Shown: one piece after another, positions 15,834-58,570 of the stretch | Layout: every line of letters begins with the position of its first letter | Numbering within the stretch: the first letter of the stretch is position 1 | Assembly: GCF_900163565.1 (NCBI RefSeq) | Contig: NZ_FUHU01000035.1 | Span: forward strand, 62,001-126,000 | Reading direction: 5' to 3' | Origin: Agrococcus casei LMG 22410 | GTDB taxonomy: Bacteria; Actinomycetota; Actinomycetes; Actinomycetales; Microbacteriaceae | Length of the DNA: 64,000 bases | Translations under genes and position numbers: made by a program | Notes under the pieces: model-generated | What the model was told of the DNA's origin: nothing | The model's database searches: none | The model's input: the letters and a program-made list of their open reading frames with translations, nothing else

Positions 15834-16694
15834 ATGACCCGAATTCTGCTGCTCGGATTCGGCGCGATCGGCCGTCAGCTGACCGGTCTGCTGCAGCCAG
15901 AGGTGTCGAGTGGGCGCTGGGCGCTGCAGGCCGTCGTGCGCGATGTCGAGGCACACGAGGCACGTGGCTCACTCGGTGTAGAGCTGCACAGTAACGACGG
16001 GTCGCACAGCAACGACGGATGGCGTGAGCTGGTTGACCGGGCCGATCTGGTCGTCGAGTGCGCGGGGGTGTCTGCTGCGCGAGACCTCGGGCCGGGCGTG
16101 GTCGCCGCCGGCCGCGACCTCGTGCTGACCTCTGTCGGCGCGCTCGCCTACCCCGACACGCGGGCGAAGCTGCTGCAGGGACCCGGCCGCCTGCACATCA
16201 CACCAGGGGCCATCGGCGGGTTCGACCTGCTGGGGGCAGCCGCAGAAGCCGATGGACTCGCTGCTGTGCGCATCCGCACTCGAAAACTCGCCGGGTCGCT
16301 CGTGCAGCCGTGGATGTCTGCCGAAGAAGCCGCCGACTTGCGCGCGCTGCGGCCGGGCGACGAGCCGAAGGTCGTCTTCAGCGGTGGGCCGGCGGATGCG
16401 ATCAAGAAGTTTCCGGGCAACGTCAACGTCGCGGTGGCGCTTGCGTGGGCGACTCGCGGCACGGGCGACAGCGCGACCGCGCTCGAGCGGTCGCTGCAGC
16501 GCGTGCAGGTCGAGCTGGTCGCCGACCCGGATGCCGAACTCAGCAGTCACGACATCGAGGCCTCGGGGCCGGCCGGCAGGTTTCGGATGCGCTTCGAGTC
16601 CGCGCCGAGCCCCGAGAACCCGAGAACATCAGGGCTCACCGCCATTTCGCTCGCCCACACTCTTCGACGAGTTGCCAAAAGCGCGCCGGTTTGA
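15834..16694 (+). CDS. Aspartate dehydrogenase-like protein (DUF108 family)
   Basis: The 286-residue protein has a Rossmann start (ILLLGFGAIGRQL), LVVECAG, TSVGALAY, the HITPGAIGGFDLL catalytic region, and FPGNVNVAVALA in the C-terminal domain. The family converts L-aspartate to iminoaspartate/oxaloacetate with NAD(P). ATG 15834 follows GGAG. A local duplication gives HSNDG twice near residue 55. The last seven residues and the stop (ending SAPV) are encoded by palindrome family A, copy 1. No clear ACTATAGT box was found upstream. Confidence 0.82.
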   Translation: MTRILLLGFGAIGRQLTGLLQPEVSSGRWALQAVVRDVEAHEARGSLGVELHSNDGSHSNDGWRELVDRADLVVECAGVSAARDLGPGVVAAGRDLVLTSVGALAYPDTRAKLLQGPGRLHITPGAIGGFDLLGAAAEADGLAAVRIRTRKLAGSLVQPWMSAEEAADLRALRPGDEPKVVFSGGPADAIKKFPGNVNVAVALAWATRGTGDSATALERSLQRVQVELVADPDAELSSHDIEASGPAGRFRMRFESAPSPENPRTSGLTAISLAHTLRRVAKSAPV

Positions 16695-16720
16695 CGGTCA
16701 AACCGGTGCGCTTTCGCAAC
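16671..16720. repeat. Palindrome family A, copy 1
   Basis: The 50-bp inverted repeat starts GTTGCCAAAAGCGCG and ends GTGCGCTTTCGCAAC, with core TTTGACGGTCAAA. It lies between convergent genes and supplies the last codons and stop of the aspartate dehydrogenase gene. It is probably a bidirectional terminator. Confidence 0.85.
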
Positions 16721-16721
16721 T

Positions 16722-17429
16722 TCAGGCGACTTCGAGGCCCGAGCGGCGATATGCGCCCGCAGCCTTCTCGCTGTGCAGATACGAAAGCAGCTTCGCGGCG
16801 TCTGAATCCTCGGCCACTTCGACCCCGAGCACGCCCGAGAACTCGGTGATGTGCTGCACGGCCTCGGGCAGCGAGCCAACGATGTCGACGCCGTCGACGT
16901 AGGCGAGCTCGCTAAGCTGCTGCACCGCCAGGCTTGCGCGGCCATCGACGACGGCCTCGCCCGTGAAGCCCTTCGGCAGCGGCGTGGCCTTCGCCTCGAC
17001 CTCGTCGAAGATGCCGAGCTGCTTCAGCAGCTTCTGTACGTAGATGCCACTCTGGCCAGCCCGGGAGTATGCGAGTGAGCGCGTTGCCTTCAGGGTCGCG
17101 ACCAGCTCGTCGACGGTGCCGATGGGCGGATGCGCATCCCCCTGCTTCACACCGAATCCGATCGCGGTCGTCACAAGGGCAACGGCTGTCTCCTCGTTCA
17201 GGGCACCCGTCGCCTCAGCGATGCCGGGCACGGATCCAGTCGCAGCGATCAGCAGATCGGGTCGCTCCCCCGCTTCCATGCGGCGCTGCAGTTCGGTCGT
17301 CGGGTCATAGTTGCGTTCGACTTGAATGCCGGTCTCGGCGGTGAACGCCTCAAGGATCTCGTCGTCGAGCGCCTTGACCGTGGCCAGTCCGCTGAACAGC
17401 ACGACAGGCTGATGTTCTTGCGAGCTCAC
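16722..17429 (-). CDS. ModA-like substrate-binding protein without signal peptide
   Basis: The 235-residue protein has a type II periplasmic-binding fold resembling molybdate/tungstate-binding ModA (VVLFSGLATVKALDDEIL, YSRAGQSGIYVQKLLKQLG, FSGVLGV). It has no signal peptide, lipobox or adjacent ABC genes, so it is probably cytoplasmic. GTG 17427-17429 follows GAGAGGAGAC. Two perfect GACTATAGTC palindromes lie upstream, so the GntR protein encoded just before it should control it. It may serve as a sensor or enzyme accessory; its ligand is unknown. Confidence 0.75.
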   Translation of the reverse strand: MSSQEHQPVVLFSGLATVKALDDEILEAFTAETGIQVERNYDPTTELQRRMEAGERPDLLIAATGSVPGIAEATGALNEETAVALVTTAIGFGVKQGDAHPPIGTVDELVATLKATRSLAYSRAGQSGIYVQKLLKQLGIFDEVEAKATPLPKGFTGEAVVDGRASLAVQQLSELAYVDGVDIVGSLPEAVQHITEFSGVLGVEVAEDSDAAKLLSYLHSEKAAGAYRRSGLEVA

Positions 17430-17467
17430 AGTGTCTCCTCTCAGCGTGCTTGCGCACGCCGGTTCAT

Positions 17468-17477
17468 GACTATAGTC
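17468..17477. promoter_or_regulatory. GntR operator 1 upstream of the ModA-like gene
   Basis: A perfect 10-bp palindrome GACTATAGTC. Its centre is exactly 20 bp from that of the second copy at 17488-17497, two helical turns, so two dimers could bind on the same face. On the minus strand it contains TATAGT, a possible -10 box. Confidence 0.75.
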
Positions 17478-17487
17478 GTCAGCTCAA

Positions 17488-18392: not shown

Positions 18393-19118
18393 ATGACCGA
18401 CCGCGTCGCCACTTCACCCCAGATCTTCCGACCCGATGAAATGCCCTTCATCGAGCGCGGCAACGGGGCTCGCACGATTCCGCTCACGACGACGGCTGTC
18501 GGTGCGACTTCGTTTCTGAACGGCATCACGACCTTCGAACCTGGCGCCGAGATCGCGCACCACACACACAACTGCATCGAGTCGGTCATGATCATCGAAG
18601 GTGAGGCGATCGTCGACATCGACGGCGCCGAGACCCCGCTGACGACGCACGACACCACGTTCGTGCCCGCGAACATCCCGCACCGATTCAAGAACGCGTC
18701 GAGTGAGAAACGGATGCGCATCCTCTGGACGTACGCATCCGCCGACGCGACGCGCACACTGGTCGCGTCTGGCGAGACCGGGCGCATCGACGCAGAACAG
18801 CAGTCGGCCGAGAGCCTCCAGCCCGTGGTCGAGCACGTCGAGATCGAAGTGCAGCCGGGCAGCGAGGATGCGTTTGTGGCCGCTGCGGCCGAGGCCGCCC
18901 AGCACTTTCAGAAGACGCCGGGCTCGCGCTCGTTCGAGGTGTTCACGTCGCATGAGCAGCCGTCGCGGATGCGCGTGCTGATCGGGTGGGACAGCATTGC
19001 GGCACACGAGCACTTCCGGACGACGCCTGAGTACGTCAAGTGGCGCGAGCTCGTCGGCCCGCACTTTGCCGAGGCGCCTCGGGTCGAGCACCTGCGCTCA
19101 GCGCACAAAGCCTTTTAG
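18393..19118 (+). CDS. Cupin / antibiotic-biosynthesis-monooxygenase (ABM) fusion protein
   Basis: The 241-residue protein has an N-terminal cupin (about 30-120) with HHTHNCIESVMIIEGEA and VPANIPHRFKN, giving the His/Glu metal ligands. The C-terminal ABM ferredoxin-like domain (about 145-235) contains VEIEVQPGSEDAF, PGSRSFEVF and PEYVKW. Each domain alone is often an enzyme or accessory of organic acid or aromatic metabolism; the fusion is uncommon. GAAGGAGCC precedes the ATG. The GntR motif upstream places it in the catabolic regulon. The stop TAG abuts palindrome A copy 2. Confidence 0.82.
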   Translation: MTDRVATSPQIFRPDEMPFIERGNGARTIPLTTTAVGATSFLNGITTFEPGAEIAHHTHNCIESVMIIEGEAIVDIDGAETPLTTHDTTFVPANIPHRFKNASSEKRMRILWTYASADATRTLVASGETGRIDAEQQSAESLQPVVEHVEIEVQPGSEDAFVAAAAEAAQHFQKTPGSRSFEVFTSHEQPSRMRVLIGWDSIAAHEHFRTTPEYVKWRELVGPHFAEAPRVEHLRSAHKAF

Positions 19119-19168
19119 TTGCGAAAAACGCACCGGTTTGACGGTCAAACTGGTGCGTTTTTCGCAAC
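19118..19168. repeat. Palindrome family A, copy 2
   Basis: The 51-bp palindrome starts GTTGCGAAAAACGCACC and ends GTGCGTTTTTCGCAAC, with core TTTGACGGTCAAA. Its 25-base arms pair with one G-U-type exception. It lies between the cupin-ABM stop and the histidine kinase start, and probably terminates the former. Confidence 0.88.
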
Positions 19169-21733: not shown

Positions 21734-21960
21734 CCGATCGCCACTCCGAGGTTGATCGCGACCGCGGCTTCGCGGGTGGGAGATTCGTCCACTGCTCGGA
21801 GCTCTGTCACCACAACTCACGTCGCTGAGGCGTGCCGATGGATGTACATCGATGGCCGGCCTCTGTGGCGTAAGTCGAAGCTCAGAGCACGGCATGTACG
21901 ACGGTTGGGTCGAAGCCTTCGAAGAGCACGCTGCGGTCTGCAGCGCAAAACAATCCAGCT

Positions 21961-22001
21961 GAGCGGGCTCTCGCGTGGATTATCCACGTGAGAGCCCGCT
22001 C
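21961..22001. repeat. Palindrome family B, copy 1
   Basis: The 41-bp inverted repeat has 19-base arms beginning GAGCGGGCTCTCGCGTGGA and ending CACGTGAGAGCCCGCTC, with a 3-base centre. Outer A/T-rich flanks (CGCAAAA and TTTTTGCG) could extend the stem. It lies just past the SRPBCC pseudogene 3' end. The rest of 21734-22024 shows no convincing gene. Confidence 0.75.
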
Positions 22002-22024
22002 CGCCCTGAATTTTTGCGTAGCTA

Positions 22025-28202: not shown

Positions 28203-29087
28203 ATGATCCACGTAGAGCACGTCAGCAAGACGTTCGGCACCCATCAGGTGCTGGGCAACGTCGACTTCACCATCAAGCCGGGGCTCATGACCGGCTTTGT
28301 CGGAGGCAACGGTGCCGGCAAGACCACGACCATGCGCATTCTGCTGGGGGTTCTCGACCCCAGCGAGGGCCGCGTCACCGTCGACGGCAGCCCCATCACT
28401 CCGGCCTACCGCGCCGGCATCGGGTACATGCCCGAGGAGCGCGGTCTCTACCCGAAGATGCCGGTGCTCGAGCAGATTGTCTACCTCGCGCGCCTGCACG
28501 GCGTGAGCAAGCCGGCGGCGACGGCGAAGGCCGAAGAGCTGCTCGAGCGGCTCGGTCTCGGCGAGCGCATGAAGGATCCGCTCGAGTCGCTCTCGCTCGG
28601 CAACCAGCAGCGCGCCCAGATCGTCGCCGCGCTCACGCACAATCCGCACGCACTCGTGCTTGACGAGCCGTTCAGCGGCCTCGACCCGATGGCGGTCGAG
28701 AACACCCTCGAAGTGCTGCGCGATGTCGCCGACACCGGCGCCCCCGTGCTCTTCTCGTCGCACCAGCTCGATGTCGTCGAGCGTCTCTGCGACGAGCTCG
28801 TGATCATCGCCGACGGTGAGATCCGCGCAGCCGGAAGCCGTCAGGACATTCGCGACGCCAACACGGTTCCGGCCTGGGACTTGCACGCGGATGCCGACAC
28901 CGGCTGGGTGCGCGGGCTCACCGGCATCGAGGTCACCGAGTTCGACGGCGGTTTCGTTCGTTTCCGTGCCGACAGCCCTCAGGCTGCCGACACCGTGCTG
29001 CGCCAGGCCATCGAGCGCGGCACCGTGCACTCCTTCACACCCGTCAGACCGCACCTGACCGAGATCTTTCAGGAGGTCATTCGATGA
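28203..29087 (+). CDS. ABC transporter ATP-binding protein (NatA-like)
   Basis: The 294-residue protein has Walker A GGNGAGKTTT, a signature SLGNQQRAQIVAAL (LSLGN rather than LSGGQ, as usual in NatA-type exporters), Walker B ALVLDEPFSGLDP and a switch His in SSHQLDVV. It overlaps the permease start by four bases (ATGA). NatAB-type exporters move sodium, drugs or peptides out of the cell. ATG 28203 is chosen because an upstream GTG-type extension would lack homology. The 28.0-28.2 kb gap upstream shows no other gene. Confidence 0.9.
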   Translation: MIHVEHVSKTFGTHQVLGNVDFTIKPGLMTGFVGGNGAGKTTTMRILLGVLDPSEGRVTVDGSPITPAYRAGIGYMPEERGLYPKMPVLEQIVYLARLHGVSKPAATAKAEELLERLGLGERMKDPLESLSLGNQQRAQIVAALTHNPHALVLDEPFSGLDPMAVENTLEVLRDVADTGAPVLFSSHQLDVVERLCDELVIIADGEIRAAGSRQDIRDANTVPAWDLHADADTGWVRGLTGIEVTEFDGGFVRFRADSPQAADTVLRQAIERGTVHSFTPVRPHLTEIFQEVIR

Positions 29088-30223
29088 GCACCACACCTGC
29101 CCCCGCATCCGCCGATCGCCAGGTCGACTACCAGACCGGCCGTGTCGGGTTCTGGAAGGCCGCAAGCATCGTCGCCGGCCGTGAGATCTCGGTGAAACTT
29201 CGCTCGAAGGCGTTCGTGATCGCCACGGTGATCATGCTGGCGTTCGTAATCGCTGCGATCATCCTGGCGCCCCGCCTCGGCGGACTCTTCGATCAGGGCG
29301 GCACCGTCGCCACCACAGGTGACCTCAGCTCTGTCGTCTCAGAGGTGACCGACGACGAGATCATGGAGGTGGCGGATGCGCAGGCGGCTCGCGACGCGAT
29401 CGCTGCAGGAGACGCCGACTCGGCAGTCGTCGCAAGCGAAGACGGCGACGGCTTCCTCGTGATTGCCGAGCGCGAGATGCCGCAGTCGCTCGTCGAAGCA
29501 CTGTCGGTGGCACCCGAGGTCGAGCTGCTCGACCCGAATGCGCCGAATCCCTTCCTGGCGATGTTCATCGCACTCGGCTTCGGCGTCGTGTGGTTCTCGT
29601 CGGCGCTGACGTTCGGCAACCAGACCGCCAACAGCGTGGTCGAAGAGAAGCAGACGCGCATCGTCGAGATGCTGCTCGCGTCGGTGTCGGCCAAGGCGCT
29701 GTTGACCGGCAAGGTCATGGGCTCGTCGATCATCGCGATCGCGCAGGTGACCTTGATCGGCATCGCTGCCGTCATCGGCGGCGTCGCCTCGGGCAACCAG
29801 ATCGTACTCGACGGGCTGGCAGAGCCGATCCTGTGGTTCATTCCACTCTTCGCGGTCGGCTTTGTGATGATCTCGGCACTCTACGCGGCCGGCGCATCGC
29901 TCGTCTCGCGCACCGAAGACATCCCGTCGACGACGCAGCCGATCACGTGGCTGCTCACGCTGCCGTACATGGCGATCGTGTTGTTCTTCAGCAACCAGAC
30001 CGCGCTGCAGGTGATGTCGTACATTCCATTCTCGGCTCCGGTGGCGGTTCCTGTGCGACTGTTCTATGGCACGACCGAGTGGTGGGAGCCGGTGCTCTCG
30101 CTCGCGATCATGATCGTGACAACCGGGCTGCTGATCCTGTTCTCGGCGAAGGTCTATGAGCGCGCGCTGCTGCGCACCGGCAAGGCGCTCAAGTGGAAGG
30201 AAGCGCTCAGCTCCAAGAGCTGA
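29084..30223 (+). CDS. ABC transporter permease (NatB-like)
   Basis: The 379-residue protein has one N-terminal membrane helix (FVIATVIMLAFVIAAIILAP), a large outside domain of about 120 residues, then five helices, the NatB/ABC-2 layout. EEKQTRIVEMLLASVSAKALLTGK marks the coupling region facing the ATPase. The ATG overlaps the ATPase stop. The transcript probably ends at palindrome A copy 3, three bases after the stop. An exporter is certain; its substrate is not. Confidence 0.88.
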   Translation: MSTTPAPASADRQVDYQTGRVGFWKAASIVAGREISVKLRSKAFVIATVIMLAFVIAAIILAPRLGGLFDQGGTVATTGDLSSVVSEVTDDEIMEVADAQAARDAIAAGDADSAVVASEDGDGFLVIAEREMPQSLVEALSVAPEVELLDPNAPNPFLAMFIALGFGVVWFSSALTFGNQTANSVVEEKQTRIVEMLLASVSAKALLTGKVMGSSIIAIAQVTLIGIAAVIGGVASGNQIVLDGLAEPILWFIPLFAVGFVMISALYAAGASLVSRTEDIPSTTQPITWLLTLPYMAIVLFFSNQTALQVMSYIPFSAPVAVPVRLFYGTTEWWEPVLSLAIMIVTTGLLILFSAKVYERALLRTGKALKWKEALSSKS

Positions 30224-30225
30224 AC

Positions 30226-30276
30226 GTTACGAAAAACGCACCTGTTTGACTGTCAAACAGGTGCGTTTTTCGCAAC
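30226..30276. repeat. Palindrome family A, copy 3
   Basis: The 51-bp palindrome starts GTTACGAAAAACGCACC and ends GTGCGTTTTTCGCAAC, with core TTTGACTGTCAAA and one unpaired position in the arms. It lies between the convergent exporter and siderophore operons, so it can terminate both. Confidence 0.88.
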
Positions 30277-30278
30277 AG

Positions 30279-31298
30279 CTAGAGGGCTGCGGCGAGAGCG
30301 TCGACGTAGGCGTCGAGGCCCCACGGCAGTGACAGTGCGGTCGGCGGCGACATCGAAGCGACGCTCTCGACACCGACGATCTGCGCAATGCCCCCAGTCT
30401 CGTGCTGCGGCAGCAACTTGCCCTGCTCCGACTCGAGGAAGGCGTCCATCGCTTCCTGCGTATCGGCATAGAGCACGATCACATCGGCCTCGAGCTGGTC
30501 AACGTTCTCGGGGCTGACGGTCGTGTAGAAGGTGGCCTCGTCAGTGTCGAGGGCATCGAGTGCCGGTGACAGCTCGAACCCGATGCCAGTCGTGAACTCC
30601 GACCGCGCATCCGCCTCCTTGGATGCGAACAGCGTCCCCTGCGAGTCGAGCGCGTGAATCACAGTCTTGCCCTCGAACTCAGGGTGCTCAGCTGCTTTCG
30701 CCTGAATCTGCTCGTTGATGCCCGCAAGCAGCTCATCACCGGCATCCGACATGCCCAGCACGTCGGCGACCGTCGCGATCACATCGCGCCACGGCGTCGT
30801 CCATGCTTCACCCTGGTAGGCGATGACCTGCAGCCCCATGCCCGTGAGCTGGTCATACTCGTCCTGCGTCAGACCCGAGTACGGCGCGAGGAACACGTCG
30901 GCGTCGACCGCAGCGACCTGCTCGATCGGCACCTCGCCGGTCGTCGTCTCGAGCACGGTCGGCGTCTCAGCACCCAGCTCGCTGATCTTCTCGGCCGCCC
31001 ATGGCAGCACGCCTTCTTCGTTGCCGCCATAGGCCTGCTGCTGCATCGCGGCGGGCACGACGTCGAGCGCGAGCATCGCGTCGGCTGATCCCCAGCCCCA
31101 TGCGATGACGCCTTCGGGCGCCTGCTCGAGGGTGGTCTCGCCATACGCGTGCTCGATCGTGATGGGGAACGCGCCCTCTTCTGCCGGGCCCGTCTGCTGC
31201 TCGTCGCCGTCGCCGCCGCTGCTCGCGCATCCGCTCAACACGAGCGCGCTCGCTGCGAATGCGGCAACGAGTGCGCCGATCCTCTTGGATTTCAGCAT
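30279..31298 (-). CDS. Siderophore ABC transporter substrate-binding lipoprotein (FecB/FepB-like)
   Basis: The 339-residue protein has a lipobox (LVLSGCASSG) and the bilobal type III binding fold for iron-siderophores (APEGVIAWGWGSADAMLAL, VFLAPYSGLTQDEYDQL, DVIVLYADTQEAMDAF). ATG 31298 follows GAAAGGTAG. It is the last gene of the five-gene operon beginning with the siderophore-interacting protein. The lipoprotein captures ferric siderophore outside and delivers it to the two permeases. Confidence 0.9.
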   Translation of the reverse strand: MLKSKRIGALVAAFAASALVLSGCASSGGDGDEQQTGPAEEGAFPITIEHAYGETTLEQAPEGVIAWGWGSADAMLALDVVPAAMQQQAYGGNEEGVLPWAAEKISELGAETPTVLETTTGEVPIEQVAAVDADVFLAPYSGLTQDEYDQLTGMGLQVIAYQGEAWTTPWRDVIATVADVLGMSDAGDELLAGINEQIQAKAAEHPEFEGKTVIHALDSQGTLFASKEADARSEFTTGIGFELSPALDALDTDEATFYTTVSPENVDQLEADVIVLYADTQEAMDAFLESEQGKLLPQHETGGIAQIVGVESVASMSPPTALSLPWGLDAYVDALAAAL

Positions 31299-31304
31299 CT
31301 GGTT

Positions 31305-35207: not shown

Positions 35208-35211
35208 GACA

Positions 35212-35307: not shown

Positions 35308-35327
35308 TGAATCGGGGCTGAGGCTGG

Positions 35328-40969: not shown

Positions 40970-40975
40970 CGCCCA

Positions 40976-41016: not shown

Positions 41017-41067
41017 CGTCTCACCAGACCACAGGTACGATCGAGCACGATGATTGAGGAGCAAGCC

Positions 41068-41841: not shown

Positions 41842-41859
41842 ACCCCAAGAGCCCCACGC

Positions 41860-41900
41860 AGAAGGCCCGCAGCCAGCGACGTGCTGACTGCGGGCCTTCT
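41860..41900. terminator. Bidirectional hairpin between gntR and the DEAD-box helicase
   Basis: Arms AGAAGGCCCGCAG (41860-41872) and CTGCGGGCCTTCT (41888-41900) pair perfectly. It lies between convergent genes and can terminate both. Confidence 0.8.
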
Positions 41901-41940
41901 GGCTCACGGGCGAAGCGCCCGAGCGATCATGAGGGTGCGA

Positions 41941-43392
41941 CTACCGCTGACCCGCGCGCTCGCGGCCGCGTCCGCCACGACGTGACCCGGCATCCGCGCG
42001 TCCTGCGCCTCCGCGTGACTGACCGTCACGGCCTCCGCGACCTTCGCCACGGCCCGACTCGCCACGACCTGCGCCGCCGCGTGCGCGACCGCCCTGGCCT
42101 GCGCCGCCGCCGTCACGAGCTGCGCGCTTGCGACGCGCGTTGGCGCCCTGCGAACGGCCCTGACCCTGCGGCTGCTTGATCTCATTGCCCGATCCGGGGC
42201 CGCCGGGAACCGGCTTCACGTACGGCGCCTCAGCACCGACGAGCGACTCGATCGCGGCCGACTCAGCGGTCACGGTCTGCGGCTGCACGTTGATCTGCGC
42301 CTTGCGCAGCAGCGCGAGGGTGTCGCGGCGCTGCGTCGGCAGCATCACGGTTGCAACGTCGCCGGCCGAGCCAGCGCGCGCCGTGCGGCCCGAGCGGTGC
42401 AGGTATGCCTTGTGCTCCATGGGCGGGTCGACGTGCACGACCAGCTCGACGTTGTCGACGTGCACTCCGCGAGCGGCGACGTCGGTTGCGACGAGCACAC
42501 GTGCCGAGCCGTCCGAGAACGCAGCGAGGTTGCGGTCGCGGGCGTTCTGCGACAGGTTTCCGTGCAGGTCGACTGCAGGGATTCCGGATGCGGTGAGCTG
42601 CTTCGCGAGCTTCTTCGCCTGGTGCTTGGTGCGAGTGAAGAGGATGCGGCGGCCGACACCCGAGGCGAGGCGGCGGATGAGCTGCGCCTTGCTGTCGGCG
42701 TCGACCTCGAAGAGGTGGTGGGTCATCGCGGCCACGGGCGAGTTGACCTCGTCGACCGAGTGCTTGACCTCGTTCTGCAGGAATCGCCGGACCAGCTTGT
42801 CAACCCCGTTGTCGAGGGTCGCCGAGAACAGCAGGCGCTGTCCGCCGGTGGGCGTCTTGTTCAGGATGCTCGTCACGACGGGCAGGAAGCCCAGGTCGGC
42901 CATGTGGTCGGCCTCGTCGATGACGGTGACCTCGATGGCCTTGAGGTCGGCGACGCCCTGACGCATGAGGTCGTCGAGGCGGCCGGGGCAGGCGACGATG
43001 ATGTCGACGCCCTCACGGAACGCGGTCTCCTGCGGTCGCTGCGAGACGCCGCCGAAGATCGTCGTGACCTTGAGGCCGGCTGCGTCTGCGAGGGGCTTGA
43101 TGGTCGCGGTGATCTGCGTTGCGAGCTCACGGGTCGGTGCGAGCACGAGGCCGCCGGGGAGGCGTCCGCCGCGAGCGCCGTCGCTGAGGCGCTGCACGAG
43201 CGGGATCGCGAACGCGAGCGTCTTGCCCGAGCCCGTCTTTCCGCGGCCGAGCACGTCGCGGCCTGCGAGCGTGTCAGGAAGGGTGTCTTCCTGAATCGGG
43301 AAGGGGTTCTCGCGGTCCATCTCCTTGAGGGCCGTGAGCAGGTTGGAAGCGACGCCGAGATCGGCGAATGACTTGGGTGCAGTGTTCTGCAT
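41941..43392 (-). CDS. DEAD-box RNA helicase with RGG-rich tail
   Basis: The 483-residue protein has ordered motifs: PIQEDTLPDTLAGRD (Q motif), GKTGSGKT (51-58), PTRELA, VIDEADHM, FSAT, TDVAARGVHVD and HRSGRTARAG. The C-terminal about 85 residues are Arg/Gly-rich, typical of RNA-binding tails of cold-shock or ribosome-assembly helicases. ATG 43392 lacks a strong ribosome site. The 225-bp stretch upstream (43393-43618) contains no gene but a GCGAGCA/TGCTCGC hairpin at 43569-43587. It may be a long regulatory leader, common for cold-inducible helicases. Confidence 0.92.
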   Translation of the reverse strand: MQNTAPKSFADLGVASNLLTALKEMDRENPFPIQEDTLPDTLAGRDVLGRGKTGSGKTLAFAIPLVQRLSDGARGGRLPGGLVLAPTRELATQITATIKPLADAAGLKVTTIFGGVSQRPQETAFREGVDIIVACPGRLDDLMRQGVADLKAIEVTVIDEADHMADLGFLPVVTSILNKTPTGGQRLLFSATLDNGVDKLVRRFLQNEVKHSVDEVNSPVAAMTHHLFEVDADSKAQLIRRLASGVGRRILFTRTKHQAKKLAKQLTASGIPAVDLHGNLSQNARDRNLAAFSDGSARVLVATDVAARGVHVDNVELVVHVDPPMEHKAYLHRSGRTARAGSAGDVATVMLPTQRRDTLALLRKAQINVQPQTVTAESAAIESLVGAEAPYVKPVPGGPGSGNEIKQPQGQGRSQGANARRKRAARDGGGAGQGGRARGGAGRGESGRGEGRGGRDGQSRGGAGRADAGSRRGGRGRERAGQR

Positions 43393-43618
43393 AGGTGTGT
43401 GCTTTCTTAGGTGGGCGCACGCGGGCATGGCCTTTTCAGCACGACGCGTTGGTGGTCGTGGTGAGGCAGCGGTGCGCGATTCGACGAGCGCGGCGGGTGC
43501 CGCGGACGTTCGCCGCAAAAAGATCTTCGACGCCCTGAGGCGGAGAGGGGATGCGTTCTACGACGCAGGCGAGCAGCAATTGCTCGCACAGACTTCCAAC
43601 ACTACCACCCTTTCGCTT

Positions 43619-43669
43619 GTTGCGAGCAACGCACGGGGTTGACGGTCAAACCGGTGCGTTGCTCGCAAC
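43619..43669. repeat. Palindrome family A, copy 6
   Basis: The 51-bp palindrome starts GTTGCGAGCAACGCAC and ends GTGCGTTGCTCGCAAC. Here AAA/TTT of other copies is replaced by paired AGC/GCT, a compensated change. It encodes the last residues (ending NAPV) and the stop of the pyroglutamyl peptidase gene on the minus strand. Confidence 0.88.
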
Positions 43670-44278
43670 GAAAGCAACTGCGGCGGCGAGACCATCCGCG
43701 AGCTGCTCGATCGTGAGCGATGTGCCCCCGCCGACCCGCGCATCCGTCTCTGCTCCGACTGTCGCGACACCCTCTGACCGCACCGCCGGAACATGCACGA
43801 ACGCCGCCGGCACCTCGAGCCCATACGCCAGGTACGCCACGTAGTTGCAGACGAACCGCCCAGCGTCGTCGCTCACGGCAGCCGGCACTCCCGCAGCTTC
43901 GATGGCTCCGGCGATCCCCTCGACATCGAGGGTCGCTGCACGCTCGCGAGCGCCGTGCTCGAAGATCGGCTCGCCCGCAGGCTGCAGGCCGGCGTTGTCG
44001 GGAATCCGCGCATCCATCTCGTTGACTCCGATGCGCTCAGGAGTCACAGATGCGCGCCCGCCCGCCTCGCCGACGGCCAGCACCGCATCGGGCCGGTAGC
44101 GGGCCACAAGCTCGAGCAGCACCGTGCCCGCAGCACCGAAGGCGACCGGCAGCTCACCGGTCACGAGCTGCACTTCGCCGCCCGCCTGCCATCGCTCATC
44201 GAGCAGATCGACGGCGCGGATGCTCGCATTCTCGGAGTCGTCGCCGAACGCTTCAAAGCCGGTCACCAGAATTCGCAT
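43646..44278 (-). CDS. pcp: Pyroglutamyl-peptidase I
   Basis: The 210-residue C15 cysteine peptidase removes N-terminal pyroglutamate from peptides in the cytoplasm. The triad is visible: Glu81 in VTPERIG, Cys144 in GRFVCNYVAY and His162 in FVHVPA, with the start MRILVTGFEAFG. Its last seven residues and stop lie within palindrome A copy 6, as in the aspartate dehydrogenase gene, so the C-terminus appears to have been remodelled by the repeat. GGAG lies close to ATG 44278. Confidence 0.88.
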   Translation of the reverse strand: MRILVTGFEAFGDDSENASIRAVDLLDERWQAGGEVQLVTGELPVAFGAAGTVLLELVARYRPDAVLAVGEAGGRASVTPERIGVNEMDARIPDNAGLQPAGEPIFEHGARERAATLDVEGIAGAIEAAGVPAAVSDDAGRFVCNYVAYLAYGLEVPAAFVHVPAVRSEGVATVGAETDARVGGGTSLTIEQLADGLAAAVAFVASNAPV

Positions 44279-44327
44279 GGCTCCATTGTCGCAAGGGGCC
44301 ACGCAGCCCCGCGCACATAATGGCGTG

Positions 44328-44370
44328 TGAGCGGGGGCTCGAGTGGATAGTCCACTCGAGCCCCCGCTCA
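44328..44370. repeat. Palindrome family B, copy 2
   Basis: The 43-bp perfect inverted repeat has 20-base arms starting TGAGCGGGGGCTCGAG and ending CTCGAGCCCCCGCTCA, and core GTGGATAGTCCAC. Outer CGCACA/TGTGCG flanks could lengthen the stem. Compared with copy 1 (21961-22001), length and core are kept while the arms differ and still pair. It ends 16 bases before the stop of the ABC membrane protein gene. Confidence 0.85.
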
Positions 44371-44386
44371 GGCCGCATATTGTGCG

Positions 44387-45109
44387 TCAGCGAACCTCAG
44401 CCTTGCTGCCCAGCAGCCAGAACGCCACGGCGCCGATCAGCATCACTCCCGCCAGGAGGCCCATCCACGAGATCCATGCGAGGTTGCCGAACCACGAGAA
44501 CACCCCCATCACCTGATCGGCAGGAAGCAGGATTCCGATGCCGAACGCCACGACGCCGAGTGCGATCGCGATCGCGGCGAGCCACATGAGACCGGTCTTT
44601 CCCCACCGATTCCAGATGCCCGAGATCGTTGCGGTGAGTGTCATGGCGGCCATCACCATGAGGAACACCTGCAGCAGCGTCTGCCACCACGAAGCTGGCC
44701 CCGTGTGCACGGTGTCGAACAGGCGAACGCTGAGTCCGAAGCCGGTTGTCGCCTGCTCGATCAGCTTCAGGACCATGACGATCACTGCTGTGCCGGCCGC
44801 TACTAGAACGAACATGACGGATGATCCCGCGAGCCATTCGCGCCGCGTGATGCCGAGGCCGAGCGCGAACGACAGGTACTGGGTCATCGTCATGGCTCCG
44901 ATGCCGAAGCCCATGCCGAGCAGGGCCCAGACGGCGCCGTTCCACTTCATGCCCTCGTAGAGGTCGGCTTCATTGGCGCCCGCGACACGGGCGATGATGC
45001 CGATTGCGATGACGATGGCGACCATCGCGGCCAGGATGTAGATCGGAACAAGGAAGGTTCCCTTGCGGTCCACGAAGTGCACATTCAGCACATTCTTGAT
45101 GCGTTGCAT
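44387..45109 (-). CDS. ABC-type membrane protein of a YtrA-like operon
   Basis: The 240-residue protein has six membrane helices (for example FLVPIYILAAMVAIVIAIG and the LLAGVMLIGAVAFWLLG end) and no soluble domain. It is the third gene of a GntR-ATPase-membrane protein operon. ATG 45109 follows AAGGAGGAGAG. In related operons the membrane part exports or senses cell-wall-active peptides; that role is inferred here. Confidence 0.8.
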   Translation of the reverse strand: MQRIKNVLNVHFVDRKGTFLVPIYILAAMVAIVIAIGIIARVAGANEADLYEGMKWNGAVWALLGMGFGIGAMTMTQYLSFALGLGITRREWLAGSSVMFVLVAAGTAVIVMVLKLIEQATTGFGLSVRLFDTVHTGPASWWQTLLQVFLMVMAAMTLTATISGIWNRWGKTGLMWLAAIAIALGVVAFGIGILLPADQVMGVFSWFGNLAWISWMGLLAGVMLIGAVAFWLLGSKAEVR

Positions 45110-45119
45110 GCTCTCCTCC

Positions 45120-46010
45120 TTAGGCTTTCTGGCGCGCCTTGCGCGCGGATTCGGTGACTGCGACGAACAGATCCTGCAGCGACGCCCGTGACTTGTCGAG
45201 CCGCAGGTCGCTGGCCAACCGGGCGGCGTCCTGCGTGATGGGGCCGCGAACGACGACGGTCGAGAGTCCGCCGATGTCGGTGCGCTCGAGCACCTGCACG
45301 CTTCCCGTGAACTGGTCGACTGCCGCACGGGTTCCTGCGAAGGCGAACGCCGCATCCGCCAACTCGTCGACGTCGTGCTGCATCAGCAGCTCGCCGTTGT
45401 CGATGACCGTGACGGTCTCGAGCAGCGGAGCGACCTCGTCGATGTGGTGCGAAGAGATCAGGATGGTTCGCGGATGCGCGGCATAGTCAGCCAGCAGGGC
45501 GTCGTAGAAGTTCTTGCGAGCGACGGCGTCGAGGCCGAGATAAGGCTCGTCGAAGAACGTCAGGTCGGCCCTGGATGCGATGCCGACGATGATGCCGATG
45601 GCACTGAGCTGACCGCGCGAGAGCTTCTTGATCTTGCGCTTCATGGGAAGCTCGAACATCTCGACGAGCTCGTCTGCTCGCTGCTGATCCCACTTCTCGT
45701 GCATGCCGGCGGCGATGCTGATCACGTGGCGCGGCTCGAATCCGTCGGGGTATGTCTGCCCCTCCTGGATGAAGCAGGTGCGCTGCATGACTGTCGTGTT
45801 CTCGAGCGGGCTCTCGCCGAACACCCGGATGTCTCCGGATGTCGCGAAGAGCTGGCCCGTGAGCAGCTGCATGAGGGTGGTCTTGCCGGCGCCGTTGCGG
45901 CCGAGAAGTCCGTGGATGCGGTTCTCGTCGAACGAGACCGTGAGGTCGTTGACTGCCTTGACAGCCTTGTAGTGCTTCGACAGTGCACTGGTTTCGATGA
46001 CTTGAGTCAT
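45120..46010 (-). CDS. ABC transporter ATP-binding protein (YtrB-like)
   Basis: The 296-residue protein has Walker A GRNGAGKTTL, signature-region LSRGQLSAIGIIVG (LSRGQ in place of LSGGQ), Walker B DLTFFDEPYLGLD and SSHHIDEV. ATG 46010 overlaps the GntR stop by four bases and follows AAGGAG. A C-terminal domain of about 80 residues follows the core. It forms a transporter with the membrane protein encoded nine bases downstream. Confidence 0.88.
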   Translation of the reverse strand: MTQVIETSALSKHYKAVKAVNDLTVSFDENRIHGLLGRNGAGKTTLMQLLTGQLFATSGDIRVFGESPLENTTVMQRTCFIQEGQTYPDGFEPRHVISIAAGMHEKWDQQRADELVEMFELPMKRKIKKLSRGQLSAIGIIVGIASRADLTFFDEPYLGLDAVARKNFYDALLADYAAHPRTILISSHHIDEVAPLLETVTVIDNGELLMQHDVDELADAAFAFAGTRAAVDQFTGSVQVLERTDIGGLSTVVVRGPITQDAARLASDLRLDKSRASLQDLFVAVTESARKARQKA

Positions 46011-46363
46011 GAGAGCTCCTTGTCGATGATGGCGTGCAGTTGGTCTGGGGTGAGTCCGAGCTGCGAGGCTGCTCGCAGCATCGGCTCGACGTATTCGGTG
46101 GCGAACGATGCGGTTCGCTCGTGAGCGAGCTGGGCTCGTGCTCCTATTGCGACAAACATTCCGATTCCTCGTCGTTTCACGAGCACTCCCTGTTCGACGA
46201 GTCTGGTGAGCCCCTTGCCGGCTGTTGCCGGGTTGATGCGCAGGTGCTGCGCGAGCTCGTTCGTCGACGGGACTGCCGTGTCTTCGGGGTAGGTGCCGTC
46301 CAGGATGCCGTCGGCGATCTGGTCAGCGATCTGGATGAACAGCGGCCGACTGTCGTCGATCAT
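46007..46363 (-). CDS. GntR family regulator, YtrA subfamily (operon 1)
   Basis: The 118-residue protein is a winged helix (PLFIQIADQIADGILDGTYP, VPSTNELAQHLRINPATAGKGLTRLVEQGVL, KRRGIGMFV) with a short C-terminal dimerisation helix pair, the YtrA size. ATG 46363 follows GGGAGG. It is the first gene of its ABC operon and probably represses its own promoter through the palindrome at 46453-46490. Confidence 0.9.
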   Translation of the reverse strand: MIDDSRPLFIQIADQIADGILDGTYPEDTAVPSTNELAQHLRINPATAGKGLTRLVEQGVLVKRRGIGMFVAIGARAQLAHERTASFATEYVEPMLRAASQLGLTPDQLHAIIDKELS

Positions 46364-46452
46364 GAGGCCTCCCGTGGTCTTGCTGTGGTCTGGGCGGTGA
46401 TGCGCTGTCTCCGCCGGTTGCCTGCTCAGCGGGGTGCGCATCCGCAATGCAG

Positions 46453-46490
46453 GTTGTGGGGTTCGTTACTCAACTAATGAACCACACAAC
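46453..46490. promoter_or_regulatory. Candidate YtrA-type operator, operon 1
   Basis: An imperfect inverted repeat runs from GTTGTGGGGTTCGTTA to TAATGAACCACACAAC around CTCAAC-type centre bases. The inner piece TTACTCAACTAAT (46466-46478) is nearly the same as the inner piece of the operator of operon 2. Confidence 0.75.
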
Positions 46491-46510
46491 CGACCCCAGT
46501 GTCAACTGCT

Positions 46511-46561
46511 GTTGCGAAAAACGCACCGGTTTGACGGTCAAACTGGTGCGTTTTTCGCAAC
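46511..46561. repeat. Palindrome family A, copy 7
   Basis: A 51-bp palindrome GTTGCGAAAAACGCACC...GGTGCGTTTTTCGCAAC with core TTTGACGGTCAAA and one G-U-type pair. It lies between divergent genes (GntR operon 1 and the small membrane protein), not at a gene end. Confidence 0.88.
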
Positions 46562-46648
46562 AGCGCCCCCTTCTCCCCCTTGAGGCGGAAGCACAAGTTC
46601 AGCCGTCAGGGTGATCCGGCGGCGGATGCGCGGGCGCAGAATTGAGAC

Positions 46649-46819
46649 ATGTCCGAACAGCAGATCTTCATCCTGGCAATCACACTCATCCTCTGCGTCA
46701 CCGTCGCAATCACGACATCGACGTCGTCGAAGAAGACGAACGAGCTCTACCGCGTCCGCATGGCGCGCCGTGCAGCACGCAAGCGCATTGCAGAGCGCAA
46801 GCGCGCATCCACTGCATGA
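46649..46819 (+). CDS. Small membrane protein (56 residues)
   Basis: ATG 46649 to TGA 46819 encodes MSEQQ, then one hydrophobic helix (IFILAITLILCVTVAIT), then a strongly basic tail with many Arg and Lys (YRVRMARRAARKRIAERKR). It is a single-pass, probably N-out or tail-inside protein. The codon pattern fits coding DNA and it is framed by palindrome A copies 7 and 8, as if a self-contained transcription unit. No clear ribosome site is visible beyond TTGAG. The function is unknown. Confidence 0.6.
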   Translation: MSEQQIFILAITLILCVTVAITTSTSSKKTNELYRVRMARRAARKRIAERKRASTA

Positions 46820-46836
46820 CCCCACAGGCCCCGCCT

Positions 46837-46886
46837 GTAGCCAAAGCGCACCTGCTTGACGGTCAAGCAGGAGCGCTTTTCGCAAC
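46837..46886. repeat. Palindrome family A, copy 8
   Basis: A 50-bp palindrome starting GTAGCCAAAGCGCACC and ending GGAGCGCTTTTCGCAAC. The core is CTTGACGGTCAAG, where T-A pairs are changed to C-G on both sides, a compensated substitution. It lies after the small membrane protein gene. Confidence 0.82.
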
Positions 46887-46915
46887 TTCTTGACACGCGC
46901 ATCCGTCATGTGTCA

Positions 46916-46937
46916 CTGTATTACTCATCTAATACAG
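46916..46937. promoter_or_regulatory. Candidate YtrA-type operator, operon 2
   Basis: A perfect inverted repeat: CTGTATTA (46916-46923), 6-base spacer CTCATC, TAATACAG (46930-46937). The inner TTACTCATCTAAT matches operon 1's TTACTCAACTAAT at 12 of 13 positions. It lies 18 bases before the gntR start and probably covers the promoter. Confidence 0.8.
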
Positions 46938-46955
46938 CATGACAAGGAGGCCTCG

Positions 46956-47354
46956 ATGGAGTTCGACAGTTCAGCTCCGATCTGGCGGCAGCTCAAAGAC
47001 GAGTTCACTCGTCGCATCGCCGTGGGCACATGGGCTCCCGGCGCAAAGCTCCCCGGAGTCCGCGAGCTCGCCGCAGACCTCGGCGTCAACCCCAACACCG
47101 CCCAGCGCGCGCTCTCAGAGCTCGAACGCGACGGCCTGTGCAAGTCAGAGCGCACGACCGGCCGCTTCGTCACCGACGACAGCCACGCAATCGACACCGC
47201 CCGGGGCGAACTCGCCCAGGCAGCCGCAGACGTATTCATTGCTCGTGCGACCGGTGTCGGCATGCAGCAGTCCCGAGCCATCGCGCTCATCGAACAGAGA
47301 TGGATGCACCATGACCACGACCCAGAAACTCCGACCCCAACCGTGGAGACCTGA
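46956..47354 (+). CDS. GntR family regulator, YtrA subfamily (operon 2)
   Basis: The 132-residue winged-helix protein (PIWRQLKDEFTRRIAVGTW, LPGVRELAADLGVNPNTAQRALSELERDGL, RTTGRFV) ends in a helical tail. ATG 46956 follows AAGGAGG. It heads an operon with the ATPase (one base gap) and membrane protein. Its recognition helix (NPNTAQRALSELE) resembles that of operon 1's regulator (NPATAGKGLTRLV), in line with the similar operators. Confidence 0.88.
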   Translation: MEFDSSAPIWRQLKDEFTRRIAVGTWAPGAKLPGVRELAADLGVNPNTAQRALSELERDGLCKSERTTGRFVTDDSHAIDTARGELAQAAADVFIARATGVGMQQSRAIALIEQRWMHHDHDPETPTPTVET

Positions 47355-47355
47355 C

Positions 47356-48069
47356 ATGAACACTCCCAGCGACCAGACGCCGCCCATTCAGCTCAGCGGC
47401 CTCACGCACCGCTACGGCTCGCGCACCGCGATCGACAGCCTCGACCTCGAGCTGCGCCCCGGCCAGATCGTCGGCCTGCTCGGCGAGAACGGCTGCGGCA
47501 AGACCACGATGCTCAAGATCATGGCCGGCGTGCTCAGCGGCTACGAGGGCACCGTGAGGATCGGCGGCCACTCCCCCGGACCCGCCTCGAAGGCGATCGT
47601 CTCGTTTCTGCCTGATGCGAGCTTCCTGCCCGACGGCGCCCGCGTCAGCTACTGCCTCGATCTCTACGACGACTTCTTCGCAGACTTCGATCGCAAGAAG
47701 GCGGCAGACCTGATCAGCTTCTTCGGGCTGCAGCAGAAGATGCGGTTGAAGGCGATGTCGAAGGGGATGCGCGAGAAAGTGCAGATCGCACTGGCAATGT
47801 CGCGAGACGCGAAGGTGTACCTGCTCGACGAGCCCATCTCGGGCGTCGACCCGTCGGCCAGGCAGACGATTCTCGACGGCATCCTGCGCAATCTCTCCGA
47901 GGACTCGCTGCTGCTCGTGGCGACCCACCTCATCCACGACCTCGAACCCATTCTCGACAGCGTCGTCATGATGCGACACGGCCGAGTCATCCTCCAGGGG
48001 CAGGCCGACGACCTGCGCGAGACGCACTCGACCAGCCTCGACCAGATCTTCAGGGAGACGTACCGATGA
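47356..48069 (+). CDS. ABC transporter ATP-binding protein (operon 2)
   Basis: The 237-residue protein has Walker A GENGCGKTTML, a divergent signature region MSKGMREKVQIALAM (MSKGM), Walker B VYLLDEPISGVDP and ATHLIHDL for the switch His. ATG 47356 begins one base after the GntR stop, and the stop overlaps the permease start (ATGA). Its core is close to the YtrB/BcrA exporter group. Confidence 0.9.
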   Translation: MNTPSDQTPPIQLSGLTHRYGSRTAIDSLDLELRPGQIVGLLGENGCGKTTMLKIMAGVLSGYEGTVRIGGHSPGPASKAIVSFLPDASFLPDGARVSYCLDLYDDFFADFDRKKAADLISFFGLQQKMRLKAMSKGMREKVQIALAMSRDAKVYLLDEPISGVDPSARQTILDGILRNLSEDSLLLVATHLIHDLEPILDSVVMMRHGRVILQGQADDLRETHSTSLDQIFRETYR

Positions 48070-56680: not shown

Positions 56681-56711
56681 CGATTCGAGCCTACTTCGCA
56701 CCGCTGACACG

Positions 56712-57497
56712 TCACGCGCGACGCCGCGAGCGCACGACCCCTGCCAGCGCCAGCGCGAGGAAGATCGCTGCCCACACCACGATGTTCAGCAGAACCGCCC
56801 ACATCGGGTCGGTCTGGCCGGTGATCAGCTGGCCGTCGGTGATGGGCCAGCGCGCGAGCGAGACATACCCATATAGAGGAGTGAATCGCGCGACATCGAG
56901 CATCGCCCCGTCGAGCGGCATGAACACGTTGCCGATGAAGCCGAACACCGTGATCGCGATCGACGCGAGCGCCGCAGCCGAGTCGGGGTTCAGCAGCATG
57001 CCGACGCCCATGCCCCAGAGCCCGAACAGTGTGCCGCCCACGAGGATCACGGCGGCCGACACGATCCAGCGCCAGGCATCGTCTGCCTGCGCACCCGTGA
57101 GGATGCCCGCGACGAACACGCCGGCGACCGAAAGCGACGAGAACGCCAGGGCAGCCGTGATCTTGGTCGCCGCATAGCCGCCGATCGGCAGCGGTGTCAT
57201 GGCGATCTGGCGCCCCCAGCCCTGTCGCACCTCGCTGGCCGCGAGCGAACAGAGCGAGCTCATTGCGGTTGCTGTTCCGAAGGCGCCCATCGACACCATC
57301 ACCTGGAACTTCGTGTTGCCGTGGGCCATCGGGGCATCTCCCCACTCGGCGAACCCGCCGAATATGAGGTACATCCCGATCGGCATCGCAAGCGTGAACA
57401 CGAGCGTGAAGGGGTTGCGCAGCTGGCGCAGCACCTCGATGCGAAAGAGCGAGGGGGCGAACACCGCGCGACGCGGGCGAATAGCTGTTGCAGTCAT
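56712..57497 (-). CDS. ABC transporter permease (DesKR-linked exporter)
   Basis: The 261-residue ABC-2 type permease has six helices and the N-terminal segment FRIEVLRQLRNPFTLVFTLAMP, with the RQGWGRQIAMTPLP coupling region. It starts three bases after the ATPase stop. Such permease-ATPase pairs next to DesKR-type systems export lipids, drugs or antimicrobial peptides. Confidence 0.88.
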   Translation of the reverse strand: MTATAIRPRRAVFAPSLFRIEVLRQLRNPFTLVFTLAMPIGMYLIFGGFAEWGDAPMAHGNTKFQVMVSMGAFGTATAMSSLCSLAASEVRQGWGRQIAMTPLPIGGYAATKITAALAFSSLSVAGVFVAGILTGAQADDAWRWIVSAAVILVGGTLFGLWGMGVGMLLNPDSAAALASIAITVFGFIGNVFMPLDGAMLDVARFTPLYGYVSLARWPITDGQLITGQTDPMWAVLLNIVVWAAIFLALALAGVVRSRRRA

Positions 57498-57500
57498 GGC

Positions 57501-58445
57501 TCAGTCCTCCGTGAGGTCGGTGAAGGCGGATTCAAGGGTGGGCGCGGTGATCTCGAGGTCGGTGGCGCCGGCGGCGAGCAGCTGCGCTGCGAGTTCGTCG
57601 GATGCGGTGGTGCGGGCGGTGAGACGGGTTCCGTCTACGCGCACCTCGTCAGCGCCTGCACGCCGCAGCTCGTCTGCGATGGTGCTTCGCGCATCCGTGT
57701 CTGGCACTGTCGCCGACACCGTGCGCCCGCCGAGCGCGGCTCGCAGGTGCGCGGTCTCGCCGTCGGCGACGATGCGGCCACGATCCATGACGACCGTGCG
57801 GCGTGCGAACTGCTCGGCCTCTTCGAGATAGTGCGTCGCGAACACGACCGTGCGGCCCGCATCCGCGCTCTCTCGCATGGTGTTCCAGAACCGGCGACGG
57901 GCTTTGACGTCCATGCCGGCGGTGGGCTCGTCGAGCACGAGCACGTCGGGGTCGGGCAGCAGGGCGAGCGCGAACTTGACGCGCTGCTGCTCGCCGCCCG
58001 AGCACTTGCCGACGCGGCGGCGGGCGATGTCGGTGAGGCCCGCGAGCTGCATCACATCGTCGATGCGGGGCTTGGCGCCGTGCAGGCCGGCGATGACCTG
58101 CACGGTCTCGGCGACGGTGAGGTCGGGCAGCAGGCCGCCCGTCTGCAGCACTGCGGCGATGCGACCGGATGCGACGGCGCGGCGGGCAGGGGATCCGAGC
58201 ACCTGCACCTGGCCGGTGTCGGGTGTGCTGAGGCCGAGCAGCATGTCGAGGGTGGTCGTCTTGCCGGCGCCGTTCGGACCAAGCAGCGCGACGATCTCGC
58301 CGCGGCCAATCGTGAGGTCGATGCCATCGACCGCGCGCACGAGCTTGCTGCCGGTGCCGAAGTGTCGCGTGATGCCTGCGAGTTCGATCGCGGGGCCGGT
58401 CGTAGTCGCGGCGCGAGGCGGTGCGGGGGCTGGTGTTGTCGTCAT
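57501..58445 (-). CDS. ABC transporter ATP-binding protein (DesKR-linked exporter)
   Basis: The 314-residue protein has Walker A GPNGAGKTTT, signature CSGGEQQRVKFALAL, Walker B VLVLDEPTAGMD and switch His in ATHYLEEAE. A C-terminal domain of about 80 residues follows, common to drug-export (DrrA-like) ATPases. It is the first gene of the operon exporter-kinase-regulator, whose start lies 75 bases past palindrome A copy 9. Confidence 0.92.
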   Translation of the reverse strand: MTTTPAPAPPRAATTTGPAIELAGITRHFGTGSKLVRAVDGIDLTIGRGEIVALLGPNGAGKTTTLDMLLGLSTPDTGQVQVLGSPARRAVASGRIAAVLQTGGLLPDLTVAETVQVIAGLHGAKPRIDDVMQLAGLTDIARRRVGKCSGGEQQRVKFALALLPDPDVLVLDEPTAGMDVKARRRFWNTMRESADAGRTVVFATHYLEEAEQFARRTVVMDRGRIVADGETAHLRAALGGRTVSATVPDTDARSTIADELRRAGADEVRVDGTRLTARTTASDELAAQLLAAGATDLEITAPTLESAFTDLTED

Positions 58446-58520
58446 GCTTCCATGCTGTCGCTGCGAGGGTGGCTGGCGCCGGATGCCGGTGTCATGACCT
58501 AGACGTGACACTTGTCATCT

Positions 58521-58570
58521 GTTGCGAAAAATGCACCGATTCGACCATCAAACCGGTGCGTTGTCGCAAC
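58521..58570. repeat. Palindrome family A, copy 9 (degenerate)
   Basis: The 50-bp element starts GTTGCGAAAAATGCACC and ends GGTGCGTTGTCGCAAC, with a decayed core TTCGACCATCAAA. It sits two bases after the methyltransferase stop and so likely terminates the peptide importer operon. Confidence 0.78.

Follow-up and report, generated by a model that had tools for sequence, protein, structure and literature searches.

A palindromic repeat family at gene ends in three Agrococcus species: a candidate REP-like mobile element

Palindromes in the window and across the genome

The window analyzed here is a 64-kb stretch of Agrococcus casei LMG 22410, bases 62001–126000 of contig C41 in a genome (G000) of 2.79 Mb and 48 contigs. 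A preliminary description of this window had claimed nine odd-length palindromes of 50–51 bp, and all nine were recovered. We refer to them as family A, with subfamilies A1 and A2. They are listed below with their positions in the window; none is assigned a strand.

Copy 1, 16671–16720: A1, 50 nt; the gene to its left (15834–16694) enters the copy and has its stop codon inside the element.
Copy 2, 19118–19168: A1; the stop codon of the gene at 18393–19118 ends on the copy's first base.
Copy 3, 30226–30276: A1; between the convergent genes 29084–30223 (+) and 30279–31298 (−), with 2 nt to spare on each side.
Copy 4, 35257–35307: A2 (GTGTCGAATAACTCTGGTGTTTGAC-N-reverse complement); divergent genes on either side.
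Copy 5, 36390–36440: A1, perfect; convergent gene ends at 36386 (+) and 36443 (−).
Copy 6, 43619–43669: A1; a paired AAA to AGC change interrupts the A/T tract; 226 nt upstream of the gene at 41941–43392 (−).
Copy 7, 46511–46561: A1; the aligned contig C148 of a related genome, G318, has no palindrome.
Copy 8, 46837–46886: diverged A1 with CTTGAC/GTCAAG, 50 nt.
Copy 9, 58521–58570: the most decayed copy, 50 nt.

The reported size of about 51 bp is exact for copies 2–7, whilst copies 1, 8 and 9 are 50-nt matches to the covariance model described below. Similarly, the reported core TTGAC-N-GTCAA is exact in eight of the nine copies, copy 9 reading TCGAC-C-ATCAA. The core TTGACNGTCAA occurs eight times in the window, each time inside a family A copy and nowhere else. 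In an ungapped 25-1-25 register, copies 1–9 have 19, 24, 24, 25, 25, 23, 24, 18 and 14 of 25 arm positions paired, respectively; copies 2–7 have 23–25 and copies 1, 8 and 9 are more decayed. Nine odd centers in the window reach at least 20 of 25 pairs, six belonging to family A (copies 2–7) and three to other palindromes, and the six that reach at least 22 pairs are all family A. Twenty dinucleotide shuffles of the window produced no odd palindrome with at least 20 of 25 pairs. RNA folding gave z scores of −5.7 to −10.7 for six segments (four window copies, one of them on both strands, and one copy of the sister family B, see below). A search of the window against Rfam returned no match above the gathering score.

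The whole genome was searched with a covariance model, trained on 30 copies; the four indel-bearing ones among the 34 known at that stage were excluded. This gave 70 matches over both strands, corresponding to 35 loci, so the nine window copies are not a local coincidence. The unit is a sharply bounded 51 bp, with flanks that are unrelated between copies. Subfamily A1 is GTTGCGAAAAACGCACCGGTTTGAC-N-mirror. Subfamily A2, GTGTCGAATAACTCTGGTGTTTGAC-N-mirror, comprises 10 of the 35 copies and differs from A1 at positions 3–4, 9, 13 and 15–18, keeping CGAA.AAC and GTTTGAC; a single-copy variant lies at C48:130613. Contig C41, of 130 kb, holds 16 of the 35 copies (1.7 expected), C48 holds nine, C21 three and five other contigs seven. 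Nine pairs of neighboring copies lie less than 1.5 kb apart, against 0.64 expected under random placement.

Paired changes in the arms

The AAA/TTT to AGC/GCT change in copy 6 and the TTTGAC to CTTGAC change in copy 8, both described previously as paired, are real. The statement that the whole outer arm had been swapped in copy 4 was too strong, this copy being a member of A2 that retains CGAA.AAC and GTTTGAC. Pairing was quantified on 30 of 34 copies, and 97.3% of cells were paired, a figure raised by leaving out the four indel-bearing copies (three of them from the window). Two-sided changes were found at 14 of the 25 pairs, which none of 500 shuffles reached; arm changes are compensated far above shuffled expectation. 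Single-arm changes nevertheless outnumber paired changes, at 43:21 in A1, 8:6 in A2 and 59:10 in B (in these counts copy 8 was dropped by the arm threshold, and indel-bearing copies inflate the single-arm side), and five of the 21 paired A1 changes come from the lone C48:130613 variant. As unpaired changes outnumber paired ones, pairing appears to be often restored rather than strictly kept. A check for a strand-specific RNA signal in one-sided copies counted 19 G-U and 12 A-C mismatches, with 34 of other kinds.

Preserved pairing had been taken to mean that the fold, or a protein reading the core, is selected. The compensated arms and the fixed core on which this was based are borne out, the latter by TGAC-N-GTCA in the sister species, but pairing does not establish selection on the fold. 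At quasi-palindromes, template switching is able to form and repair perfect stems in one event (PMC8794818), and this process can yield compensated arm changes without selection. Compensatory switching under selection is known from Bacillus cereus terminators (PMC5381666, available part). Arm complementarity in family A may be upheld by template-switch correction, by selection on the hairpin, or by both, and compensated changes in DNA palindromes alone are no proof of a selected RNA fold.

Sister family B and insertion sites

Model matches were found in three of 24 genomes of the genus: G000 and two metagenome-assembled genomes (MAGs), G003 and G318. A frame pattern, in which the boxes are fixed and the spacer is free, had 24, 9 and 21 matches in G000, G003 and G318, respectively, and none in the other 21 genus genomes. 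Among 84,980 GTDB species, in scans that may omit the window's own genome, the frame pattern matched 17 contigs, all from two Agrococcus MAGs (“uncultured Agrococcus sp.” and “Candidatus Agrococcus pullicola”), and the A1 inner pattern had no match. Neither pattern matched any IMG/VR contig, and plasmids and phages searched with one A1 copy gave no match; on these results a phage, plasmid or viral origin was rejected. Outside the genus, weak model matches were seen in three of 297 genomes of the order (G032, G214 and G293), all to hairpins without the A or B core. Literature searches on repeats of this kind in Agrococcus, the Microbacteriaceae and further Actinobacteria, and on repetitive extragenic palindromes (REPs) at convergent genes, concerted REP change and template switching, brought up no description of this family among the papers listed, in a library with few subscription papers.

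The two MAG species carry a sister family, B (GGTGCGAAAAACTTCGAAACATGAC-N-mirror), with the length and boxes of family A (GCGAAAAAC and TGAC-N-GTCA). Its spacer differs from that of A yet is still self-complementary, and the two families jointly conserve CGAA.AAC (with position 9 variable) and TGAC. Spacers are not mixed among the frame-pattern matches, those of G000 being A-type and those of G003 and G318 TTCG-type. The plan of the unit is an outer box CGAA.AAC, a 9-nt spacer, an inner box TGAC and one free base, followed by the mirror image. The lineage-wide, concerted change of spacer may reflect bursts from lineage-specific master copies, or gene conversion. As the A/B pair separates the sequence constraint on the two boxes from the pairing constraint on the spacer, selection and template switching become directly testable as causes of hairpin maintenance. 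Several MAG contigs end in or near B palindromes (C7, C250, C443, C335 and C199 in G003; C121 and C49 in G318), and MAG copy numbers are therefore probably underestimates. In G318, B palindromes also occur in tandem, 63 bp apart (L093 10279/10342 and L100 9567/9630), and the left flank of one B copy (L087) includes 80 bp that recur many times in G318 (C111, C14, C120, C143, C104 and C50) and are also seen in G003 (C351).

Boxes that are kept between A and B across diverged species could be read by a sequence-specific DNA protein (a chromosome organizer, a regulator or a replication barrier) recognizing TTGACNGTCAA and GCGAAAAAC, and the strong regional clustering on C41 would suit such sites. 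However, binding needs no 25 paired bases with a changing yet complementary spacer, most A copies lie at stop codons rather than promoters, and parts of the cluster region map to different coordinates in two complete relatives, G002 and G012. We consider protein-binding sites an unlikely explanation.

Twenty B sites (16 in G318 and four in G003) were matched to other genomes by their joined flanks. One gave a clean filled/empty pair: G318 contig C60 contains 58 additional bp, the 51-bp palindrome and 7 nt more, where G003 contig C162 reads through, with flanks that are 86% identical, and G000 likewise has no palindrome at this place. This single empty site shows no obvious target-site duplication. 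At two sites the corresponding G003 contig breaks off within a palindrome in the equivalent position (L085/C250 and L099/C7), and at six (L088, L092, L093, L094, L110 and L111) the partner is without the palindrome but its content also differs, twice by a whole gene. The remaining eleven had no usable partner or lay at a contig end. Three further B sites, already known and outside the 20, are filled in both B species.

Base composition around the copies is skewed. Toward the element, B flanks have C and G fractions of 0.51 and 0.17, compared to 0.35 and 0.30 after stop codons in the same stretches; the 36 gene ends at A copies have 0.44 and 0.25, compared to 0.32 and 0.35 in 302 other genes. 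The switch from C-rich to G-rich sequence is already present in the G003 empty site. The filled/empty pair, this composition and the restriction to one lineage indicate that copies arise by insertion, preferentially at C-rich to G-rich switches near gene ends.

Four B sites match A sites in G000 (C25 116481, and C41 105644, 108861 and 120546, the last three being window copies 6, 8 and 9), copy 9 agreeing only in its distance and copies 6 and 8 only in a single flank. The G318 ortholog of the gene at 41941–43392 has a B copy 204 nt upstream, with another flank than that of copy 6, and a G318 B copy (L095 3974) adjoins the ortholog of copy 8's neighboring gene, again with a different flank on the other side. 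For copy 9, G318 and G003 both have B copies at a matching distance, although some 720 bp that align poorly separate the aligned flank from the element; orthology is probable here because the distances match. In a search of the whole of G000, 10 of the 20 B sites had some match, in two cases with an A copy; the other two A/B matches are biased, as those stretches were chosen for holding A copies. Where species share a site but differ in its spacer, either an old insertion could have been rewritten in situ or a favored spot could have received a second one. One B site corresponds to a different palindrome family in G000 (C34 80882).

Two species have, at loci that are not orthologous, a restriction-nuclease-like gene (MTES_1575 type, below the Pfam cutoff) with palindromes on both sides (C48 18093–19034 in L023, and L095 4003–4938). 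A link of the repeat with DUF559 nucleases (PF04480) in general was rejected, as the sole G000 match, on C25, lies some 32 kb away from the closest copy on that contig; matches in G318 and G003 are on contigs without a listed B copy.

The palindromes might instead be recombination sites that move the single genes between them as cassettes, similar to integron or dif modules. This would account for the close spacing of neighboring copies, and for the nuclease-like gene, which lies between A2 copies on C48 in G000, whilst in G318 a gene for a 62% identical protein lies between the B copies corresponding to window copies 8 and 6, an interval that contains other genes in G000. Two B sites also coincide with gene presence or absence between G318 and G003. 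However, the genes occur in both orientations, no recombinase was identified, a 39% identical nuclease paralog (C48 119451–120362) has no copy within 10 kb, and insertions near variable genes could give the same pattern. Furthermore, attC and dif sites are unlike perfect palindromes with one central base. We regard gene cassettes as a doubtful interpretation.

Gene ends, mobility and class of the repeat

Gene ends were taken from our own codon-usage gene caller. By this calling, 25 of the 35 A copies lie at −1 to +4 nt relative to a stop codon and 30 have a gene 3′ end no more than 30 nt away; 13 have gene ends this close on both sides. At four copies a gene reads into the element and terminates at an internal TGA. 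Convergent genes surround 16 of 34 A copies, compared to 54 of 287 neighboring gene pairs in the same stretches; a second gene calling put the figure at 15 of 35. The consensus of family A has a GC-rich hairpin and a T tract on both strands. As the element is symmetric, the hairpin would take the same form in RNA from either strand, suggesting, from position and anatomy, that it is probably a two-way terminator or 3′-end stabilizer at convergent gene ends. We speculate that a ribosome at a stop codon 0–4 nt away could mask the first 11–12 nt or so (the outer arm and A tract), after which the inner stem and T tract would terminate transcription, and that, once the ribosome is released, all 25 bp of the stem could shield the 3′ end. 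Such masking would not apply to family B, in which none of 29 copies lies within −1 to +4 nt of a stop codon.

The same positions would be expected of plain bidirectional intrinsic terminators, whose RNA hairpin is selected in place without any mobility of its own. Consistent with this are the very stable hairpin, the A/T tract flanking the inner stem in both A and B, and the compensated changes, which resemble the compensatory switches in terminators of Bacillus cereus (PMC5381666). The G032 hairpin (L036, ~1500–1550), of another family of the order and with arms GGAAAAAC...GTTTTTCC, also has the A-tract, stem and T-tract layout in a different sequence. Bidirectional terminators have in common with family A the location at gene ends, the compensated stem changes and, in the consensus, the hairpin with a T tract on both strands. 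However, ordinary terminators do not share one 51-bp sequence 35 times over, here in three species of one clade only, nor does a copy come and go between close relatives, as at the one insertion site. In family A the stem extends through and beyond the T tract, copy 6 keeps its pairing and loses the tract, and support from a terminator scan was weak. Plain terminators therefore seem a rather improbable account of the family as a whole.

We favor, with moderate confidence, the reading of family A as a short, non-autonomous and mobile palindromic repeat of REP-like kind, belonging to a clade of three Agrococcus species, its hairpin probably acting as a two-way 3′-end element. Family A is palindromic, extragenic, multi-copy (35) and near gene ends, as REPs are. 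REPs favor convergent and unidirectional gene ends (PMC3733652, available part), and in behavior, including this one, family A is by comparison closest to REPs; for this reason we group it as a REP-like mobile palindrome and not as a REP. REPs, bacterial interspersed mosaic elements (BIMEs) and REP doublets forming hairpins (REPINs), GTAG-tagged and mobilized by REP-associated tyrosine transposases (RAYTs), are described in the available texts as likewise short, palindromic, mostly intergenic and multi-copy, often at gene 3′ ends or convergent genes (PMC3733652; PMC3116915). Family A differs in its near-perfect 51-bp symmetry around one central base, its 35 copies, and the lack of a GTAG tag and of any Y1 transposase found. 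CGTC-tagged repeats are also palindromic without a linked transposase (PMC3733652, available part), whereas family A is longer and symmetric and has no abutting CGTC. Stem-loop families of Yersinia, Bordetella and Enterococcus likewise lie near gene 3′ ends, but belong to other phyla, and the available part of that source mentions no lineage-wide spacer replacement (PMC1590033).

A search for a RAYT had been proposed, and a transposase of this type was not supported: the Y1_Tnp domain (PF01797) was found in none of the 24 genus genomes, compared to five of 14 control genomes in the same search. GTAG was present at the element end in none of 35 A and five of 29 B copies, and CGTC abutted none of the 64. 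A GTAG-class REP with a RAYT was rejected on these grounds, and the family is not a standard REP, as no Y1/RAYT transposase was found in the 24 genomes, no solo A1 arms in G000 and no consistent GTAG or CGTC tag. Spread may depend on some other enzyme, or on replication-based copying.

Several observations weigh against our reading. As well as the missing mobilizing enzyme, no solo arms were found in G000 for A1 (the A2 and B arms were not searched), all 43 half-arm matches (up to three mismatches in 20) lying inside known copies, and the 25 Pfam families with most matches, out of 95 in the neighboring genes (62 of 63 genes scanned), include no transposase and are mostly transport, metabolic and regulatory ones. 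The clean empty site stands alone, and its direction as a gain rather than a loss depends on G000 lacking the copy. The outer flanks of one copy show no preference for pairing with each other over flanks from elsewhere in the family (P 0.38–0.93); a model in which a copy inserts into the loop of a single matching hairpin was rejected accordingly, only the C-rich/G-rich bias stands, and we make no claim for a specific matching hairpin as target. As for the 3′-end role, five of 34 A copies lie between divergent genes (four of 35 with the second calling), B copies are not tightly at stops (none of 29 within −1 to +4 nt and 10 of 29 within 30 nt), and the T tract is broken in many copies, position 9 being A in 44 of 68 arms. 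A simple terminator scan of 30000–48000 called one of six copies, and its total of six calls was no higher than in shuffles (mean 7.0). The gene-end placement fits the bidirectional terminator proposed in the preliminary description, in the sense of a two-way 3′ hairpin, but a canonical terminator is weakly supported.

A miniature inverted-repeat transposable element (MITE), formed from two abutting terminal repeats of a resident insertion sequence (IS), would match 51 bp as two 25-bp inverted repeats plus one base, and insertion polymorphism, as expected of a MITE, was seen at one between-species pair (G318 C60 and G003 C162). The confinement of all 43 A1 half-arm matches to known copies, with no solo arms flanking a transposase, led us to reject a MITE of a resident IS on the A1 arms, making this origin highly improbable. 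We give little credence to a further reading, in which the palindromes form a class with no tie to Y1 or RAYT, with fixed boxes and a paired spacer rewritten in concert like a barcode, and in which palindrome pairs move single genes, one of them carrying the restriction-nuclease-like gene as a possible mobilizer. If our favored reading of a REP-like mobile repeat is correct, such palindromes can spread and renew themselves in a lineage where no RAYT was detected, and some other mobilizing activity must exist.

Other repeated palindromes were seen in G000. A second odd family, AAGATGGAAAAGTCCCG..GAGATG-N-CATCTC.. mirror, has a similar A-tract layout and lies at C41 20840, C48 41319 and 43094, and C34 80882 and 81383 (L017, L024 and L031); its copy at C34 80882 sits where G003 has a B copy after the orthologous gene. 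A third, GGAGATTCRCGCAGGTGAAGCGC-A-mirror, occurs twice at 50–75 bp from the second (C48 43041/43094 and C34 81309/81383), in a BIME-like mosaic. A further terminator-like palindrome, whose tip is similar (GTGGAT/GTCCAC around the center) and whose stem is GAGCGGG/CCCGCTC, is repeated at 21958–22004 and 44312–44386 of the window and at C48 99573.

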